64,000 bases of DNA from Myxococcota bacterium (GTDB taxonomy: Bacteria > Myxococcota > B64-G9): positions 62,001-126,000 of the forward strand of contig JAKLGA010000013.1 of NCBI GenBank assembly GCA_022710975.1, written 5' to 3'. Below are positions 18,355 to 52,872 of this stretch, one piece after another; position 1 is the stretch's first letter, and each line of letters begins with the position of its first letter. The notes under the pieces were generated by a model, which saw only the letters and a program-made list of their open reading frames with translations, had not been told where the DNA came from and made no database searches. Made by a program: the position numbers and the translations under genes.

Positions 18355-19392
18355 TCACTCGGCCGCCTCGGCCCGGCGCAGGCGGCGGAGCATGAAGTCG
18401 GCCTCGAAGTCCATGCCCCAGGCCGTGTAGAAACGCCGCAGCGCGCGGTGCTGGGCCAGCGGCTCGAAGCCGATGGCGTGCGCGAGCTTGCGCAGGCAGA
18501 CCGGGCACAGGTGGATGGGGCGCCGGTCGGCCTCGTCCAGGCTGTTCGAGCCGCACACCAGGCACTGGAAGTACACGCAGTGGCCCAGGCCGAACAGGTG
18601 CGCGGCCTCGTGGGCCAGCACGCTCAGGCTGCGCTTCAGCAGCACCCCCGCGTGGCCCGGGCCGCGCGGCTTGCCGAAGAAGGCCGGGTCGTAGCGGGCG
18701 AAGGAGAACACCCCCACGCCGTCCGCGGGCGAGGCCTCGCCGAACACGAAGTTCCAGCTCGGCTCGGGGTACAGGTCGGTCATGGTGAGCCCCAGCAGGC
18801 AGAAGGCGTCCGCCGGCAGGCGCGCGACCAGGACCTCGATGAGCTGCGGGGCCAGCAGCTGGGGCTTGTGGGTGTGCGGGTGCGTCCGCGAGGTGACGCC
18901 GAGCGGGCCCGGGTCGAGCGGCGGCAGCAGCAGGGTCTCGAGCTGGAACACGGCCTGGGCGTACTCGCGCAGCGCCTCCAGCGGCGGCGCGCCGTCCTCG
19001 GGGAACTCGCCGATGGGCTGGAGGTAGATCTTCCGGCGCGCGCCCTCGGGCCGGCGGTTCCGCGCGGCCGCGAACTCGGCGAAGGTCTCGCGCGGCTCGT
19101 CGAACCGGGCCAGCCAGTCGGACGGGCCGGGCGCGTCGATGGGCAGGTAGTCCGGGTCGGGCGTGAGCAGGGCCCGGGTGGCCGGGGCGAGCCCGTCGAA
19201 CGGGCCGATGGCGTAGAGCCGCTCGGCCTCGTCGGGCACGCGGAAGCCCACCGGCGCCGGGGCCTCCTCCTCGGCCGGCGACTCGGCCGGCGCCGCCGCC
19301 TCGAGCGGCGGGGGGCCGGAGCGCAGCCAGAGCGCGGCGCCCAGGCCGGCGGCGGCCAGGGCCAGGACGGCGGCGAGGACCCTCTTGGCCAT
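18355..19392 (-). CDS. Archaemetzincin-family zinc protease (M54) with N-terminal membrane anchor
   Basis: 345 residues from ATG 19392. An N-terminal TM/signal segment (3-23) and an acidic Ala/Pro linker precede the catalytic domain (~120-330). The zinc motif HEAAHLFGLGH (261-271) is followed by Cys272, Cys277, Cys296 and Cys299, reproducing the archaemetzincin HExxHxxGxxHC-x4-C ... CxxC layout. The stretch GSNSLDEADRRPIHLCPVCL closely resembles animal AMZ2 (GSNHLEEADRRPLNLCPICL). The Met expected two residues after the second Cys (Met-turn) is Val here (CLV). Length and sequence are nearer vertebrate AMZ1/AMZ2 than the ~180-residue prokaryotic forms. Substrate unknown; the N-terminus suggests the domain faces the periplasm. 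Confidence 0.9.
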   Translation of the reverse strand: MAKRVLAAVLALAAAGLGAALWLRSGPPPLEAAAPAESPAEEEAPAPVGFRVPDEAERLYAIGPFDGLAPATRALLTPDPDYLPIDAPGPSDWLARFDEPRETFAEFAAARNRRPEGARRKIYLQPIGEFPEDGAPPLEALREYAQAVFQLETLLLPPLDPGPLGVTSRTHPHTHKPQLLAPQLIEVLVARLPADAFCLLGLTMTDLYPEPSWNFVFGEASPADGVGVFSFARYDPAFFGKPRGPGHAGVLLKRSLSVLAHEAAHLFGLGHCVYFQCLVCGSNSLDEADRRPIHLCPVCLRKLAHAIGFEPLAQHRALRRFYTAWGMDFEADFMLRRLRRAEAAE

Positions 19393-20606: not shown

Positions 20607-20631
20607 CAAGCGCGGGCAGGCTCTGAGAAAT
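20603..20631 (+). promoter_or_regulatory. Promoter of the asd operon
   Basis: TTGACA (20603-20608) overlaps the stop codon of the preceding gene. A 17-base spacer leads to AGAAAT (20626-20631), ~33 bases upstream of the asd ATG. Confidence 0.55.
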
Positions 20632-20663
20632 TGCGCGCCTGGACCGGGGCGCGAGGAGATCCG

Positions 20664-21680
20664 ATGGCCAGGGCGATCGACGTGGCGGTGGTGGGCGCGA
20701 CCGGGCTGGTGGGCGAGGTGCTGCTCGACCTGCTGGCCGCCCGGCGCTTCCCGCTGGGCCGGCTGCGGCTGCTGGCGTCGGCCCGCTCGGCCGGCCGCCG
20801 GCTGCGCTGCGGCGCGCTGGAGGAGACCGTCCAGGAGCTCACCCCCCGGGCGCTCGAGGGCGCTGGGCTGGTGTTCATCTCGGCCAGCGACGCCATCTCC
20901 CGGGAGTACGGCCGGCTGGCCGCCCGCTGGGGCGGGGTGACCATCGACGACTCGGGCGTCTGGCGCATGGACCCCGAGGTGCCGCTGGTGGTGCCCGAGG
21001 TGAACGCCGCGGACGTGGAGCTGCACCGGGGCCTGCTCAGCATCCCCAACTGCTCGACCACCCCGGTGGTCATGTGCCTGGCGCCGCTGCACCGGCGCTT
21101 CGGGGTGAGGCGCGTGGTGGCCGCCACCTACCAGTCGGTCTCCGGCACCGGCCGGGCCGCGGCGGAGGAGCTCCGCGCGGGCTGCCGGGCGGAGCTCGCC
21201 GGGGAGCCGTTCGAGCCCCGGGTCTACCCGCACCCCATCGCCTTCAACCTGTTCCCGGAGATCGGCTCCTTCCAGCCGGACGGCTACACCAGCGAAGAGT
21301 GGAAGATGGTGCGCGAGACCCGCAAGATCCTGCACGCCGAGGAGCTGGCCATCGCCACCACCTGCGTGCGGGTGCCGGTCGCGGTGGGGCACTCGGCCGC
21401 CGTGCACGTCGAGCTCGATCGGCCGGTGGAGCCGGCCGAGGCCCGCCGGGCGCTGGCGGACATGCCCGGGCTGGTGGTGGTGGACGAGCCCGGCCGGCAC
21501 GCCTACCCCCACCCGCGCCTGGCCGCCGGCCAGGATCCGGTCTTCGTGGGCCGCGTCCGCAAGGATCTCTCGCACCCCAACGGCCTGGTCTTCTGGGTCG
21601 TGCTGGACAACCTGCGCAAGGGCGCCGCGCTCGACGCCCTGCAGATCGCCGAGGAGCTCCTGCGCCGCGGCAAGCTGTGA
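20664..21680 (+). CDS. asd: Aspartate-semialdehyde dehydrogenase
   Basis: 338 residues, the usual length. ATG 20664 has GAGGAG six bases upstream. It reduces beta-aspartyl phosphate to aspartate semialdehyde with NADPH, the branch point to lysine, diaminopimelate, threonine and methionine. Visible motifs are the Rossmann dinucleotide motif VVGATGLVGE (9-18), the catalytic Cys130 in SIPNCSTTP, the SVSGTGRAA loop, and VGHSAAVHVE near the C-terminus with the conserved His region. The sequence is of the GATGxVG / NCST bacterial type. The next gene, encoding an ERG2-like protein, begins 25 bases after its stop and is probably co-transcribed. Confidence 0.96.
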   Translation: MARAIDVAVVGATGLVGEVLLDLLAARRFPLGRLRLLASARSAGRRLRCGALEETVQELTPRALEGAGLVFISASDAISREYGRLAARWGGVTIDDSGVWRMDPEVPLVVPEVNAADVELHRGLLSIPNCSTTPVVMCLAPLHRRFGVRRVVAATYQSVSGTGRAAAEELRAGCRAELAGEPFEPRVYPHPIAFNLFPEIGSFQPDGYTSEEWKMVRETRKILHAEELAIATTCVRVPVAVGHSAAVHVELDRPVEPAEARRALADMPGLVVVDEPGRHAYPHPRLAAGQDPVFVGRVRKDLSHPNGLVFWVVLDNLRKGAALDALQIAEELLRRGKL

Positions 21681-21705
21681 ACCCAAGCCCCTCGAGGAGG
21701 CGCCG

Positions 21706-22383
21706 ATGAAGTACGTGTTCGATCCCGACGTGGTCCACCAGTGCGCGCTCAAGTGCCTGGGCAAGCCCAAGCCCGAGATGTTCGACGTGTTCGCGGACGC
21801 GATGGAGGAGCGCTACCCGGGCTGGATCGACCGCAGCCAGCCCTGGCTGTACAGCATCGCCGGCGGGGCCATGATCCAGATGAAGCTCTACCACGTGTCC
21901 CTGTTCGAGTACATCATGATCTGGGGCACGCCGATCGGCTCCGAGGGCCACTCGGGCCGCCACCTGGTGGGCTTCTGGGACACGGTCATCGACGGGGAGA
22001 CCTGGTACTACAGCGAGGGCCAGTTCGAGAAGCGGGTGTACAAGCCCGGGGATCGCATCTGGGTGGGGCCCAAGCAGACCGCGGGCATGAACTTCACCGA
22101 CGGGGTGTGGGCGGTCGAGTACGCCCGCGGGCTGATCCCGGCCAGCATGCCCTTCGGCCTGGCGGACGTGCTGCTGTCCACGGTCGACCTCCCCACGGCG
22201 GTGCAGACGGTGAGCCAGTACGCCTACCACATCGGCCGCTGCATGACCAAGAAGGCCGAGCTCCTGCCGCTCCCGCTCCGGCTGCCGGTGCAGGGCGCGG
22301 GCTCGCTGGTCCGCGCCGCGGGCGACTGGGTCACCCGGGCCTGCCAGCCGCCCCCGTTCTCCCCCGAGATCCCCAAGGGCTGA
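21706..22383 (+). CDS. ERG2 / sigma-1-receptor-like protein
   Basis: 225 residues; ATG 21706 follows GAGGAG. The product matches the ERG2/Sigma1R family along most of its length: YVFDPD at the start, AGGAMIQMKLYHVSLFEY, GTPIGSEGHSGRH, YKPGD, WAVEYARGLIP and PFGLADVLLSTVD. Asp92 (FWDTVIDG) and Glu138 (AVEYARG) align with human sigma-1 receptor Asp126 and Glu172, which bind the ligand amine. ERG2 isomerises the sterol C8 double bond in fungi. The N-terminal TM helix of eukaryotic members is absent, so this is the soluble cupin-like barrel plus C-terminal helices (LADVLLSTVDL onward). No sterol-pathway genes are nearby. Substrate unknown; membership in the family is confident. Confidence 0.92.
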   Translation: MKYVFDPDVVHQCALKCLGKPKPEMFDVFADAMEERYPGWIDRSQPWLYSIAGGAMIQMKLYHVSLFEYIMIWGTPIGSEGHSGRHLVGFWDTVIDGETWYYSEGQFEKRVYKPGDRIWVGPKQTAGMNFTDGVWAVEYARGLIPASMPFGLADVLLSTVDLPTAVQTVSQYAYHIGRCMTKKAELLPLPLRLPVQGAGSLVRAAGDWVTRACQPPPFSPEIPKG

Positions 22384-22428
22384 AGTCCGAGCCCTTAACC
22401 CCATGCAGGTGAAGCGGATTCTTGCCCC

Positions 22429-22458
22429 TTGATCTGGATCACAGCCTCGGGCTAGAGT
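22429..22458 (+). promoter_or_regulatory. Candidate promoter of the large Cys-rich lipoprotein
   Basis: TTGATC (22429-22434), 18-base spacer, TAGAGT (22453-22458). It leaves an unusually long ~100-base leader before the ATG at 22566; nothing else was recognised in the 182-base gap. Confidence 0.4.
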
Positions 22459-22565
22459 CCGGCGTCAACTCGGCGACCATTGGAATCCTGTCCGGCGAGG
22501 TGAGTAATCGCCCAACCCGTTCCGTCTGTGGTGGCATCGACCCACCCAAATCGAGGAGGAAGAGG

Positions 22566-25500
22566 ATGAGGAAGTCAAGTTGGATGAGCGTGCTGTTGGC
22601 GTTGTGTTGCGCAGGCGCGCTGCTGGGCGGCTGCGACGACGGCGTTGGACCCCAGTACTGCGTGAGCCCGGCCGACTGCGACGCGGGCGAGTACTGCAAC
22701 CTGCAGCTCGGCCTGTGCGTGCCCGGGGTGTGCCCCCGCGTCTGCACGGGGCTCGAGTGCGGCCTGGATCCGATCTGCGGTGAGAGCTGCGGCACCTGCA
22801 CCGCGCCCGAGACCTGCACCGCCGCCACCGGCCAGTGCGAGTGCGCGCCGGTGTGCACCGGCCGCGCCTGCGGGCCGGATCCGGTCTGCGGCCAGAGCTG
22901 CGGCACCTGCGGCGTGGACGAGACCTGCGACGTCGACGGCGTCTGCCACGGCGGCTGCGTGCCGAACTGCGCCGGCATGGAGTGCGGCTCGGACGGCTGC
23001 AGCGGCAGCTGCGGCGAGTGCGGCGCCGGCGAGACCTGCGACGGCGACGGCATCTGCCAGGGCTGCACGGCGGACTGCACCGGCAAGGCCTGCGGCGACG
23101 ACGGCTGCAACGGCTCCTGCGGCACCTGCGGCGTGGACGAGATCTGCAACGCCAGCTTCCAGTGCGAGCCGGTGTGCACCCCGGACTGCGCGGGCAAGGA
23201 GTGCGGCTCGGACGGCTGCCGCGGCACCTGCGGCACCTGCGACGCCGGCGCCGGCGAGGTGTGCGTGCTGGCCACCAGCCAGTGCGAGGTGTGCGTCCCG
23301 GACTGCACCGGGCGCGTGTGCGGCCCGGATCCCACCTGCGGCGCCTCCTGCGGCGACTGCCAGGCTGACGAGGTCTGCAACGCCGGCGTGTGCGAGTGCG
23401 TGCCGGACTGCCTGGGCCTCGAGTGCGGCGACGACGGCTGCGGCGGGTCCTGCGGCAGCTGCCTGGTGACCGAGACCTGCAGCGAATCGGGCATCTGCGA
23501 GTGCACCGAGGACTGCACCAACCGCGAGTGCGGGCTCGACCCGGTGTGCGGCTACTCCTGCGGCACCTGCGGCGTGGACGAGGTGTGCTCCGTGGACGGC
23601 ACCTGCATCGCCGACTGCGTGCCGGACTGCGCCGGCCGCGAGTGCGGCCCGGATCCGACCTGCAACACCTCCTGCGGCACCTGCCCGGGCGGTGAGACCT
23701 GCGACGCCGCCGGCCAGTGCGGCTGCGCCCCGAACTGCGCGGGCAAGGAGTGCGGCGACGACGGCTGCGGCGGCCAGTGCGGCACCTGCACGGCCCCGCA
23801 GACCTGCGACGCGAACGGCGCCTGCGTGTGCGTGCCCGACTGCGGCAACCTCGAGTGCGGCAACGACCCGGTGTGCGGCCAGCTGTGCGGCACCTGCATT
23901 GCGCCCGACGTCTGCCAGGCCGGCGCGTGCGTGTGCGTGCCGGACTGCGGCACCCGCGAGTGCGGCGTGGACCCGGTGTGCGGCACGAGCTGCGGCACCT
24001 GCCAGGCCGGCGAGACCTGCGACGCGAGCGGCCAGTGCCAGACCCAGGGCGGCCTGCCCGGGGATCTCTGCACGGACGACGCCCAGTGCGCGGGCGGGCT
24101 GTGCCTGATGTTCACCGCCACCGACGGCTACTGCGGCAGCGTGTGCGACTGCAACCAGGGCACCGGCTGCGACGTGGCCGACCCGCAGCCGATCTGCCTG
24201 TGGGGCGACGGGAACGATCCCCCGCAGACCTGCTACTGCGGCTACGAGTGCCCGAACGGCCTGACCGACTGCCCGGACAACGGCGTGGGCTGGCAGTGCC
24301 TGGACGTCGGCGGCGGCTACATGGCCTGCGTGCCGGGCACCTGCGTACCTGACTGCACCGGACGTGAGTGTGGCCCGGACGGCTGCGGCGGCTCCTGCGG
24401 CACCTGCCAGGCCGGCGAGGCCTGCGACGGCGCCGGCCAGTGCCAGGCGGGCCAGGCCGGCACGCTCGGCGATCCCTGCCCCTTCGGCAACGTGAACACG
24501 GACGCCCTGGCGTGCGACGAGGGGCTGGGTTTCTTCTGCGTGGGCATCCCCGAGGACCCGGCGGCCGCCTGCGCGAGCGACCAGGACTGCATCGATCTCG
24601 GTTACCCGACCAGCTACAACCCGGACTGCGTGACCGGCGCCACCACCGGCTGCGGCGCGAGCTTCTGCAGCCAGTACTGCGACGCCAACGGCGCGTGCCC
24701 GGCGGGCTGGGAGCCTTACTACGATGACGACGGCGTGACCTGCCTGTTCTGCGTCCCGACCATTGCCTGCACCCCGGACTGCACCGGCCGCGAGTGCGGC
24801 GACGACGGCTGCGGCGGCTCCTGCGGCAGCTGCGTGGCGCCCGAGGTGTGCGACGCGAGCGGCCAGTGCGTTCCGGGCGGCGCGGGCCTGCCGGGCGACC
24901 TGTGCACGGACGACACCCAGTGCGCCGGCGGCCTGTGCCTCATGGTCACCGCCACCGACGGCTACTGCGGCAGCACCTGCGACTGCAACCAGGGCACCGG
25001 CTGCGACGTGGCCGACCCCCAGCCGATCTGCCTGTGGGGCGACGGCCAGGATCCCCCGGTCACCTGCTACTGCGGCTACGAGTGCCCCAACGGCCTGACC
25101 GACTGCCCGAACAACGGCGTGGGCTGGCAGTGCGTGGACGTGGGCGGCGGCTTCATGGCCTGCCTCCCCGGCGCGTGCCAGCCGGACTGCACGGGCCGCG
25201 CTTGCGGCGACGACGGCTGCGGCGGCTCCTGCGGCACCTGCGGGGCGAACGAGACCTGCAACGTCTCCGGCCAGTGCATCCCGGACAACTGCACCGAGGC
25301 CCTGCTCGACGGATCGTTCGAGGCGGCCGGCGCGGGCGCGGCCGACTGGACCATGTTCTCCTCCGCGTTCGGCACGCCGCTGTACGAGTACGCCGCCCTG
25401 GCGCACACCGGCAGCTGGATCCTGTGGATCGGCGGCGGCGCGGCGGATGACGCCTACGCCGAGCAGAGCGTGGTGATCCCGGTCGGCACCGCCACGGTCA

Positions 25501-26252
25501 GCGCCTACATCCTGATCGACCAGGGCGTGGCCGCGGACTACTTCCGCATCACCGTGGACGGCACCGAGGTGGCCCGTGTGGCTGGCGACAACGCAACCTA
25601 CGCCAACGCCTACGGCATGGTGAGCGCCGACGTATCCGCCTACGCCAACGGCGCGGCTCACCTGATCCGCCTGCACGGCGTGATCACCACCGCCACCGGC
25701 AGCATCCTGGTGGACGACGCCAGCCTGCTGGCCTGTGGCGGCGGCCCGGTCGGCCGGCTCATGCTGTCCGAGGTGCTGTACGACTCCCAGGGCGGCGACG
25801 ACGGCAACGAGTGGATCGAGATCTTCAACGGCACCGCCAGCGCCATCGACCTGAGCACCTACTCCCTGGGCAACGGCGGCAACAACTACCTGGGCTCGGT
25901 GGTGCAGCTCGCCGGCACCATCCCGGCGGGCGGCTGCTTCGTGGTGGGCGGGCCGAACGGCGGCTTCGCCTACAACCAGACCTTCAACTTCGCCCCGGAT
26001 CTCGAGAACAGCGGTGCCGCGGCCGACGGCGTGGCGCTGTTCAACGTCCCGGCGGCCTCGCTCACCGCGGCCACCGTGCCCATCGACGCGGTCATCTACG
26101 GCACGAACAACTCGAACAACCTGCTCGACGAGACCGGCGCCGCGGGCAACGTGGACGTGGGCGACGCCGGCTCCAACCAGTCCATCGAGCGCACGGGCGC
26201 CGGCTGGGCCATCCAGGCCACGCCGACCCCGACCGTGTGCAACCTGCCCTGA
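22566..26252 (+). CDS. Giant Cys-rich repeat lipoprotein with C-terminal lamin-tail domain
   Basis: 1,228 residues. ATG 22566 has GAGGAGG upstream, and MRKSSWMSVLLALCCAGALL leads into lipobox LLGGC. Fifteen ~33-residue Cys-rich units follow, twelve in tandem, with consensus CVPDCxGxECGxDxxCGxSCG then TCxxxETCDxxGxC. Among units 12-15 lie two near-identical ~96-residue inserts (CLWGDG, YCGYECPNGLTDCP) and one copy of the ~85-residue module shared with genes at 1 and 1220. Residues ~910-1060 form a carbohydrate-binding-like beta domain (LLDGSFEAAGAGAADW). The C-terminal ~165 residues match the lamin-tail domain (LMLSEVLYD, NEWIEIFN, IDLSTYSLGN). Likely a long disulfide-braced surface stalk carrying binding domains; ligand unknown. 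A terminator follows at 26278. Confidence 0.9.
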   Translation: MRKSSWMSVLLALCCAGALLGGCDDGVGPQYCVSPADCDAGEYCNLQLGLCVPGVCPRVCTGLECGLDPICGESCGTCTAPETCTAATGQCECAPVCTGRACGPDPVCGQSCGTCGVDETCDVDGVCHGGCVPNCAGMECGSDGCSGSCGECGAGETCDGDGICQGCTADCTGKACGDDGCNGSCGTCGVDEICNASFQCEPVCTPDCAGKECGSDGCRGTCGTCDAGAGEVCVLATSQCEVCVPDCTGRVCGPDPTCGASCGDCQADEVCNAGVCECVPDCLGLECGDDGCGGSCGSCLVTETCSESGICECTEDCTNRECGLDPVCGYSCGTCGVDEVCSVDGTCIADCVPDCAGRECGPDPTCNTSCGTCPGGETCDAAGQCGCAPNCAGKECGDDGCGGQCGTCTAPQTCDANGACVCVPDCGNLECGNDPVCGQLCGTCIAPDVCQAGACVCVPDCGTRECGVDPVCGTSCGTCQAGETCDASGQCQTQGGLPGDLCTDDAQCAGGLCLMFTATDGYCGSVCDCNQGTGCDVADPQPICLWGDGNDPPQTCYCGYECPNGLTDCPDNGVGWQCLDVGGGYMACVPGTCVPDCTGRECGPDGCGGSCGTCQAGEACDGAGQCQAGQAGTLGDPCPFGNVNTDALACDEGLGFFCVGIPEDPAAACASDQDCIDLGYPTSYNPDCVTGATTGCGASFCSQYCDANGACPAGWEPYYDDDGVTCLFCVPTIACTPDCTGRECGDDGCGGSCGSCVAPEVCDASGQCVPGGAGLPGDLCTDDTQCAGGLCLMVTATDGYCGSTCDCNQGTGCDVADPQPICLWGDGQDPPVTCYCGYECPNGLTDCPNNGVGWQCVDVGGGFMACLPGACQPDCTGRACGDDGCGGSCGTCGANETCNVSGQCIPDNCTEALLDGSFEAAGAGAADWTMFSSAFGTPLYEYAALAHTGSWILWIGGGAADDAYAEQSVVIPVGTATVSAYILIDQGVAADYFRITVDGTEVARVAGDNATYANAYGMVSADVSAYANGAAHLIRLHGVITTATGSILVDDASLLACGGGPVGRLMLSEVLYDSQGGDDGNEWIEIFNGTASAIDLSTYSLGNGGNNYLGSVVQLAGTIPAGGCFVVGGPNGGFAYNQTFNFAPDLENSGAAADGVALFNVPAASLTAATVPIDAVIYGTNNSNNLLDETGAAGNVDVGDAGSNQSIERTGAGWAIQATPTPTVCNLP
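22731..24048 (+). repeat. In-gene tandem array of twelve ~105-bp Cys-rich units
   Basis: Twelve consecutive copies coding for ~33-38 residues each; three more copies lie downstream in the same gene. Units differ at many synonymous and some non-synonymous sites, so the array is old and maintained at protein level. Confidence 0.85.
24051..24338 (+). repeat. 288-bp intragenic direct repeat, first copy
   Basis: Encodes a ~96-residue block with LCTDDxQCAGGLCLM, CLWGDG and YCGYECPNGLTDCP. The second copy at 24885-25172 has the same length and differs by scattered single bases only, so this is a relatively recent internal duplication. Confidence 0.85.
24885..25172 (+). repeat. 288-bp intragenic direct repeat, second copy
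   Basis: Partner of 24051-24338, in the same orientation and frame. The ~550 bp between the copies carry one 33-residue unit, the shared ~85-residue module and a second unit, so the duplication may have moved as a cassette. Confidence 0.85.
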
Positions 26253-51043: not shown

Positions 51044-52060
51044 ATGCAGGTGCTCGAGAACCACTCCCTGAAGGCCCTGCACACCCTCGGCTGCGAGGCG
51101 CGGGCGCGGCTGTTCGCCGAGGCCCGGACGCTCGACGAGCTGCGGGCCGGGCTCGCGCTGGGGCGGGAGCGCGGGCTGCCGGTGGTGCTGCTCGGCGGCG
51201 GCAGCAACGTGCTCTTCCGCGCCGACCTCGAGGCGCTGGTGCTCAAGGTCGCGCTCGACGGGCTGGAGCCGGCGGGCGAGGAGGGCGGCCAGGCGCTGGT
51301 GCGGGCCGCGGCCGGCGTGGGCTGGGACGCGCTGGTCGAGGACTGCCTGCGGCGCGGGCTCCACGGCCTGGAGAACCTCTCGGGCATCCCCGGCACGGCG
51401 GGGGCCGCGCCGGTGCAGAACATCGGCGCCTATGGGGTGGAGCTGGCCGAGCGCCTCCACTCGCTCGAGGCCCTCGACCGGCACAGCGGCGAGCTGCGGC
51501 GGCTCACGGCCCGGGAGTGCCACTTCGGCTACCGCGACTCGATCTTCAAGCGCGCGCTCCGCGACCGGCTGGTCATCTGCGCCGTGACCCTGCGCCTGTC
51601 GCGCGCCCCGGCGCCGCGCCTGGAGTACGCCGCGCTCCGGGACGAGCTCCAGGCCCGCGGGCTCGCGCGGCCGACCCCCGCCCAGGTCCGGGACGCGGTG
51701 CTGGCGGTGCGCGCCCGGAAGCTCCCGGATCCGGCCGTGCTAGGGAACGCCGGGTCGTTCTTCCAGAACCCGATCGTGGCCCCGGCGGCCTTCGCCGCGC
51801 TGCGGGCGGTCGCGCCGGACGCGCCCGGCTACCCCGAGCCGGACGGGCGGGTCAAGCTGGCCGCGGGCTGGCTGATCGAGCGCTGCGGGTTCAAGGGCGC
51901 GCGGCGCGGCGACGCCGGCGTGCACTCCGGGCAGGCCCTGGTGCTGGTCAACCACGGCCAGGCCCGGGGCCAGGAGCTGCTCGCCCTGGCGGACGAGATC
52001 CGCGCCGGGGTGGCCGCCCGCTACGGGGTGCGCCTGGAGCTGGAGCCGCGCGTCTACTGA
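51044..52060 (+). CDS. murB: UDP-N-acetylenolpyruvoylglucosamine reductase
   Basis: 338 residues. ATG 51044 opens MQVLENHSLKALHTLGCEAR, the standard N-terminus; the far longer upstream frame is not coding. The enzyme reduces UDP-GlcNAc-enolpyruvate to UDP-MurNAc with NADPH and FAD in peptidoglycan synthesis. It is a type I (E. coli-like) enzyme: LLGGGSNVLF (FAD binding), NLSGIPGTAGAAPVQNIGAY, GYRDSIFK with the active-site Arg164, and GNAGSFFQNP with the proton-donor Ser238. No ribosome-binding site is seen. A TTGACA (51009-51014) with 17-base spacing ends six bases before the ATG, so the mRNA may be leaderless. It overlaps the end of the convergent SDR gene by seven bases. Confidence 0.96.
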   Translation: MQVLENHSLKALHTLGCEARARLFAEARTLDELRAGLALGRERGLPVVLLGGGSNVLFRADLEALVLKVALDGLEPAGEEGGQALVRAAAGVGWDALVEDCLRRGLHGLENLSGIPGTAGAAPVQNIGAYGVELAERLHSLEALDRHSGELRRLTARECHFGYRDSIFKRALRDRLVICAVTLRLSRAPAPRLEYAALRDELQARGLARPTPAQVRDAVLAVRARKLPDPAVLGNAGSFFQNPIVAPAAFAALRAVAPDAPGYPEPDGRVKLAAGWLIERCGFKGARRGDAGVHSGQALVLVNHGQARGQELLALADEIRAGVAARYGVRLELEPRVY

Positions 52061-52872
52061 GCGGCCGCGGGCAGGCCCATGATCCGGTGGGCCAGCCAGG
52101 CCCGCAACCGGCGGGGCATCAACCGCACGCTCCACAGGCCGAGCTTGATGAGCAGCCCGGGCGCCACCGACCGGCGCCAGCCGAACAGCGCCGCGAGCCC
52201 GGCCCGGGCCACCTGCTCCGGCGAGGCCATGGTCAGGCGCATCACGCCGGGGATGCGCTCGCCCTGGCCGGACACGGCGAAGAACTCGGTGTCGATGCCG
52301 CCGGGCAGCAGGCTGCACACCTTCACGCCGTGAGGCGCGAGCTCCACGGCCAGGGCGTCGCCCAGGTGGCGCACGAAGGCCTTGGTGGCCGCGTAGACCG
52401 CCATCTGCGGCACGGGCAGGTCGGCCACGAAGGAGGCCACGTCGAGGATCCAGCCCCGGCGCCTGGCGCGCATGGCCTGGCCGAAGCGGTGGCTGAGCTC
52501 GAGCAGCGCGAGCACGTTGACGCGCACCTGCTGGGCCGCGTCCTCGAAGGGACGATCCAGGAAGTCACCGTGGGCGCCCAGCCCGGCGTTGTTCACCAGG
52601 ATGTCGATGGTCAGCCCCTGGCCCTCGGTGCGGGTGAAGAGCTCCCCGGCCGCGCCCGGGGCGCCGAGATCGAGCGCCTCGACCCGGACCTCCACGCCGT
52701 GCGCCGAGCGCAGCTCCTCGGCCAGGGCCTGCAGGCGCTCCTCCCGTCGGGCGGTCAGCACCAGCCCGGCCCCGCGCCGGGCCAGCTCGCGGGCGAACGC
52801 CCGCCCCAGCCCGCTCGACGCCCCGCTCACCAGGGCGCGCCTGCCCACCAGCTCGCCGCGCGCGTCACCCAT
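52054..52872 (-). CDS. Short-chain dehydrogenase/reductase
   Basis: 272 residues; ATG 52872 with GGGAGG upstream. Classical SDR features: cofactor motif SGASSGLG (16-23), NNAG (94-97), and the catalytic Ser147, Tyr160 and Lys164 (YAATK). The Arg after the second beta strand (LTARREERL) suggests NADP(H) preference. The C-terminal ~50 residues are basic and hydrophobic, as in DltE/YqjQ-type SDRs near membranes. The substrate cannot be named. On the minus strand TTGACA (52939-52934) with a 17-base spacer and CAGACT is a weak promoter candidate. Confidence 0.9.
   Translation of the reverse strand: MGDARGELVGRRALVSGASSGLGRAFARELARRGAGLVLTARREERLQALAEELRSAHGVEVRVEALDLGAPGAAGELFTRTEGQGLTIDILVNNAGLGAHGDFLDRPFEDAAQQVRVNVLALLELSHRFGQAMRARRRGWILDVASFVADLPVPQMAVYAATKAFVRHLGDALAVELAPHGVKVCSLLPGGIDTEFFAVSGQGERIPGVMRLTMASPEQVARAGLAALFGWRRSVAPGLLIKLGLWSVRLMPRRLRAWLAHRIMGLPAAAQ

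Follow-up and report, generated by a model that had tools for sequence, protein, structure and literature searches.

The window, a stretch of 64,000 nucleotides from a Myxococcota genome, encodes a bacterial member of the ERG2/sigma-1 receptor family, whose eukaryotic representatives either isomerise sterol ring double bonds (ERG2) or bind steroids and drugs (sigma-1 receptor). We estimate an even chance that this protein is a membrane-associated sterol/steroid double-bond isomerase built on the ERG2/sigma-1-receptor fold and working with 3beta-HSD-like, SRD5A and SDR partners, and the steroids on which it acts are most likely taken from elsewhere.

Family, fold and pocket of the window protein

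The ORF starts with an ATG placed 5 nt behind a Shine-Dalgarno sequence, has a third-position GC content of 99% that matches its neighbour genes, and is present as a single copy in the 7.13-Mb window genome. Its 225-aa product matched PF04622 (ERG2_Sigma1R) with E=9.4e-49 (166 bits for a cut-off of 21) over positions 21-206 of the 210 in the profile, and none of the named NCBI families searched matched it. When used as a query against solved structures, sigma-1 receptors were its only strong relatives, the best being the human one (E=2.5e-29), and a profile of 33 bacterial members matched the sigma-1 receptor with E=1.7e-51. An earlier note, made from the letters of this DNA alone, had proposed a bacterial ERG2/sigma-1 receptor homologue that aligns with the family over nearly its full length and carries the motifs GTPIGSEGHSGRH and VEYARG. 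Profile, sequence and fold comparisons all agreed with this proposal, neither of the two outcomes that the note had named as refuting it was obtained, and the two motifs were located at residues 74-86 and 137-142, respectively.

Table 1 Features of the window discussed in the text.
Feature	Position	Strand	Basis
ERG2/sigma-1-receptor-like protein, 225 aa	21706..22383	+	PF04622, human sigma-1 receptor match, AF2 model, fold match
Shine-Dalgarno AGGAGG	21695..21700	+	direct sequence reading
asd (aspartate-semialdehyde-dehydrogenase family)	20631..21680	+	PF02774 E=7.4e-53, PF01118 E=4.3e-23
SDR ~30 kb from the ERG2-like gene	52054..52872	-	tblastn and own-genome search

The AlphaFold2 model of the window protein, obtained with an input alignment of 33 bacterial homologues, had a mean pLDDT of 95.4 and a pTM of 0.90. 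As the earlier note had expected, it displayed a cupin-like barrel (residues ~47-141), which is followed by predicted C-terminal helices at 144-158, 162-184 and 189-212, the first two as in the sigma-1 receptor and the third being extra. In a Foldseek search of the PDB, ranks 1-42 were all sigma-1 receptors (best E=5.6e-20; 6djz, 5hk1 and 7w2f among the matches) and cupins appeared only after them. In the best matches, the model superposed on the human and Xenopus receptors with TM values of 0.78-0.80 and an rmsd of 1.1-1.4 Å over about 184-190 columns, and the fold shared with the sigma-1 receptor (SIGMAR1; 5hk1, 6djz, 7w2b, 8w4b) extends along ~185 residues with about 34% identity. The N-terminal TM helix of the sigma-1 receptor proper, already reported as missing, is indeed absent: the window protein begins near residue 35 of the human receptor, with the ribosome-binding site directly upstream. 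Apart from the absence of this helix and the presence of the additional C-terminal one, it differs from the receptor in being bacterial and in having a steroid-enzyme gene context.

Glu172, Asp126, Tyr103, Phe184 and Tyr206 of the sigma-1 receptor all have equivalents in the window protein, and alignment confirmed that Asp92 and Glu138, singled out earlier as an acidic pair, correspond to human Asp126 and Glu172. As a family-wide trait, this pair stood only in part, since Glu138 was invariant across all the sequences compared, including the 33-sequence alignment, whereas Asp92 was kept throughout the window's clade (24 out of 24; see below) and in the animal sigma-1 receptor but its position was occupied by Ala or Glu in the ERG2 copies of bacterial sterol clusters. 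Trp89, Tyr120 and His154 of the receptor are replaced by Ala55, His86 and Val120, the first two changes affecting pocket positions. Fungal ERG2, the sterol C8-C7 isomerase, shares with the window protein the Pfam family and the invariant Glu, but the host of the window protein lacks squalene epoxidase and CYP51. Yeast ERG2, which served only as an outgroup and on which no conclusion rests by itself, is about 29% identical to the window protein, has a non-acidic residue at the Asp92 position and, as an indication only, carries Ala and His at the Trp89 and Tyr120 positions where the window protein departs from the receptor. Eleven residues contact progesterone in the Xenopus sigma-1 receptor (PMC11224282). 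The window protein is identical at 6 of these 11 positions (M59, L61, Y69, I144, F150 and Y172) and conservative at another 3 (M71, W73 and G151).

Phylogeny and gene neighbourhood of the relatives

The phylogeny that the earlier note had suggested, a maximum-likelihood tree of 38 sequences, placed the window protein in a bacteria-only clade of 25 sequences (support 100/100) that stands apart both from the human and Xenopus sigma-1 receptors, with which the window protein did not group, and from the bacterial copies of sterol clusters. Clade members belong to Myxococcota, Chloroflexota, Actinomycetota and Spirochaetota, and one ERG2-like protein (L037, genome G177) was too divergent for placement. 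The family is rare. Sampling found it in 9 of 195 genomes from the phylum of the window, in 6 of 400 from Chloroflexota (phylum of L006) and in 5 of 396 from Actinomycetota (phylum of L004), the centre genomes being counted in each case, and it was absent from the 14 control genomes. Searches of viral contigs, plasmids and phages gave no matches, and a phage or plasmid origin of the gene was rejected on these grounds. A MAG from the same family as the window genome (G003, locus L030) encodes an ERG2-like protein that scored 212 bits and is nearer the eukaryotic profile than the window protein; neither cyclase nor squalene epoxidase was detected in this MAG, and given its contamination of 6% the gene may be foreign.

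Comparison of all ORFs across the ERG2-like loci revealed two gene contexts, namely sterol-synthesis clusters and, in the window's clade, steroid-modifying-type enzymes. The former was seen in Hormoscilla and in two gammaproteobacterial MAGs of sponge symbionts, with squalene epoxidase, oxidosqualene cyclase (OSC) and a CYP51-like P450, to which Hormoscilla adds ERG24 and a Rieske oxygenase. These sterol-cluster copies belong to the same family as the window protein (38-43% identity) but lie on other tree branches and lack Asp92. The occurrence of ERG2 within bacterial steroid-gene clusters has already been published (PMC9531527), and the Calothrix cluster has a homologue for C-8 isomerisation (PMC10202945).

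As an instance of the second context, SRD5A, SDR, ERG2-like and extended SDR genes abut or overlap, in this order, in a four-gene operon of a Myxococcaceae MAG (L041). ERG2-like, extended SDR and SRD5A genes are also grouped in Rugosimonospora and Anaeromyxobacter, an SDR adjoins the ERG2-like gene in Dehalococcoidia, other Chloroflexota, Propionibacteriaceae, Bifidobacteriaceae, Myxococcota and Spirochaetales, and further Chloroflexota have an adjacent extended SDR (~50% identity). The extended-SDR neighbour of Spirochaetales matched 3Beta_HSD with E=2.7e-67 and human NSDHL, a sterol-4alpha-carboxylate dehydrogenase, with E=1.1e-45; with the exception of L020, the matches of extended SDRs to 3Beta_HSD were weak. 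In L099, the gene directly downstream of the ERG2-like one encodes a Rieske protein that matched KshA_C, and a natural fusion of 389 aa (L083:982-2148, genome G480) joins an F420H2-dependent reductase domain (PF04075) to the ERG2/sigma-1 domain. The cassette SRD5A was closest to PbSRD5A (7c83, E=3.4e-80), a proven 5alpha-reductase of progesterone (PMC7815742), and matched human SRD5A2 with E=7.5e-44. PbSRD5A corresponds to a neighbour or partner of the window protein and is not its homologue. Within the loci compared, the recurrence of steroid-type neighbours in several phyla would exceed what chance is expected to produce. Because relatives from its own clade adjoin SRD5A, 3beta-HSD-like and SDR genes, the ligand of the window's clade would be a steroid or a sterol, and is therefore less open than the earlier note had left it.

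Two Chloroflexota loci (L007:6900-9610 and L016:2318-6290) carry, after the SDR-ERG2 pair, genes for a 4Fe-4S protein, a membrane-subunit-like protein and a molybdopterin oxidoreductase, which were not counted as belonging to the cassette because both loci come from close relatives. In three Actinomycetota loci (L110, L111 and L112), P450 genes are immediately followed by divergent ERG2-like genes, accompanied in L110 and L111 by further oxidoreductase-like genes; these loci may possibly represent terpenoid or steroid clusters.

The window locus and its genome

The asd gene ends 25 bp upstream of the ERG2-like gene on the same strand and both are possibly co-transcribed, in keeping with the operon proposed earlier. 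This arrangement offered no functional clue, however, since neither asd, nor the metallophosphoesterase, nor any other window neighbour was found beside ERG2-like genes in any of the related loci compared, and asd was accordingly rejected as a functional partner. Directly downstream of the ERG2-like gene, 22422-26252 (+) encodes a long, Cys-rich, repetitive protein of secreted type. Elsewhere in the window, the product of 18355-19392 (-) is an M54 metallopeptidase of the archaemetzincin-like kind (PF07998, E=1e-10) that contains the sequence HEAAHLFGLGH and paired Cys motifs.

The earlier remark that there are no sterol genes nearby was correct for the surroundings of the gene; elsewhere, the genome (98.6% complete) carries an OSC-type gene and an SRD5A homologue. 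The former (L028:1483-3630, minus strand) is found on contig 7 of the window genome (G000), at about 111.2-113.3 kb, and its product matched TIGR03463 with E=2.9e-224 and 746 bits, slightly below the cut-off of 851. Its identity as a squalene-hopene cyclase was rejected on the basis of the 230 bits obtained with the hopene-cyclase model, as compared to those 746, and of its SDCTAE motif. The chorismate-mutase and polyprenyl-synthetase-like genes beside it are again found next to its OSC-type counterpart in another MAG (L102), indicating that this locus is conserved. Squalene epoxidase and P450s of any kind were sought in the window genome and not found; the lack of P450s implies that of CYP51, and the known aerobic sterol pathway is hence absent, the OSC-type cyclase being the only component of the pathway upstream of ERG2 (squalene epoxidase, OSC, CYP51) that is present. 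Of about 23 clade genomes only 1 had a squalene epoxidase, compared to 3 out of 3 genomes with a sterol-cluster ERG2. Three further clade genomes have an OSC-type cyclase, one of them (G104) together with squalene epoxidase, two carry squalene-hopene cyclases, and most are devoid of both cyclase and epoxidase.

Whereas cassette partners adjoin the ERG2-like gene in relatives, their homologues are dispersed in the window genome: an SRD5A homologue on contig 23 (PbSRD5A, E=5.4e-76), an SDR on contig 7 with 44% identity to one of the cassette SDRs, and an extended SDR on contig 2 with about 34% identity to the cassette one. Owing to this dispersal, we infer rather than observe their partnership with the ERG2-like protein. 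The SDR encoded in the window itself is ~40% identical to cassette SDRs and is a weak candidate for a partner, the contig 7 SDR being the closer homologue.

Proposed function and alternative explanations

Conversion of a sterol into a 5alpha-stanol involves four steps, 3-oxidation, double-bond shift, 5alpha-reduction of the 4-ene and 3-keto reduction, onto which the four-gene operon would map, with the ERG2-like protein as the natural candidate for the shift. As the gene set matches these four steps, our guess is that exogenous sterols undergo a delta5-to-delta4 (or delta8/delta7) isomerisation, perhaps within a route of sterol/steroid A/B-ring modification leading from sterol to 5alpha-stanol. 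The C-terminal helices, instead of an N-terminal TM helix, would attach the window protein to the membrane at its inner face, the side of the hydrophobic barrel turned to the membrane would admit the steroid, and the invariant Glu138 would move a proton and so shift the ring double bond, helped by Asp92 in this clade and perhaps assisted by His86 and Tyr69. A 3beta-HSD-like enzyme, SRD5A and an SDR ketoreductase would act alongside; some relatives encode all of them in a single operon, and here their genes are dispersed. Several observations count against this reading, namely the scattering of the genes in the window genome, the modest identity of its extended SDR to that of the cassette, the great commonness of the SDR and extended SDR families, the weak matches of extended SDRs other than that of L020 to 3Beta_HSD, and the ability of the fold, in the human sigma-1 receptor, to bind steroids without isomerising them; the OSC-type protein encoded by the window genome counts against an exogenous substrate.

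The conversion of sterols into 5alpha-stanols is known from soils and sediments (PMC5217961), no genes assigned to it in bacteria were found in the literature searched, and the known gut genes (ismA) relate to coprostanol, which is the 5beta product (PMC8468837). Neither was a description of the clade without sterol synthesis and of its cassette found in the searchable literature, although Hoshino and Gaucher 2021 (PNAS) may hold one. We tentatively suggest, with considerable doubt, that these genes form an undescribed steroid-conversion module, which also occurs in lineages that are anaerobic (Dehalococcoidia of fens, termite-gut Spirochaetota and Actinomycetota) and would employ the ERG2/sigma-1-fold protein to isomerise the ring double bond on the way from sterol to 5alpha-stanol. 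If true, the gene context would name candidate genes for the long-known microbial formation of 5alpha-stanols in soils and sediments, and the protein would provide a soluble model for the sigma-1 receptor. There is debate over the ancestral chemistry and the natural ligand of this receptor, which is a drug target, and a bacterial relative devoid of the TM helix, with the Asp/Glu pair and most of the steroid-contact residues retained, could be easily expressed and would allow a direct test of the steroid-isomerase versus steroid-receptor question.

On account of the window-genome cyclase, a home-made triterpenoid substrate is the most serious rival of the isomerase of exogenous steroids. The window protein would then be an ordinary ERG2 (delta8 to delta7) in a sterol/triterpenoid pathway fed by the genome's own oxidosqualene cyclase, as could be expected from the OSC-type cyclases of this and three other clade genomes, the squalene epoxidase of G104, and the true sterol clusters of cyanobacteria and sponge symbionts that contain ERG2 (PMC9531527). 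We consider this unlikely in view of a nearly complete window genome having neither squalene epoxidase nor P450, of most clade genomes having neither cyclase nor epoxidase, and of the position of the window protein outside the sterol-cluster lineages.

In eukaryotes, the substrates of SRD5A-type reductases and of SDRs also include polyprenols (SRD5A3, DHRSX), which, together with the squalene-hopene cyclases of two clade genomes, would be compatible with a non-steroid isoprenoid substrate (hopanoid, polyprenol or quinone side chain), the SRD5A-like protein and the SDR carrying out a polyprenol-type reduction as in dolichol synthesis. Such a substrate seems quite unlikely to us, because the cassette SRD5A is closest to the steroid enzymes PbSRD5A and human SRD5A2, the KshA-like and NSDHL-like neighbours indicate steroids, and the progesterone-contact residues are largely retained.

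The sigma-1 receptor binds progesterone and DHEAS, for which isomerase activity is not needed (PMC11224282). It also has the Asp126/Glu172 pair, of which the Asp has been lost from bacterial sterol-cluster ERG2, and the window protein could by analogy be a non-catalytic steroid carrier or sensor. This role is improbable, as the operon structure and the reductase fusion suit an enzyme better and the pocket, as an indication only, is closer to ERG2 than to the sigma-1 receptor at Trp89 (Ala55) and Tyr120 (His86). Finally, the rarity and patchiness of the family (9/195 genomes in the phylum) and the non-conserved window neighbours would fit a passenger gene acquired by transfer and functionally unlinked to the window genome, but this is highly improbable for an intact ORF that has a strong ribosome-binding site, a codon usage native to the genome (99% GC3) and all its pocket residues conserved.
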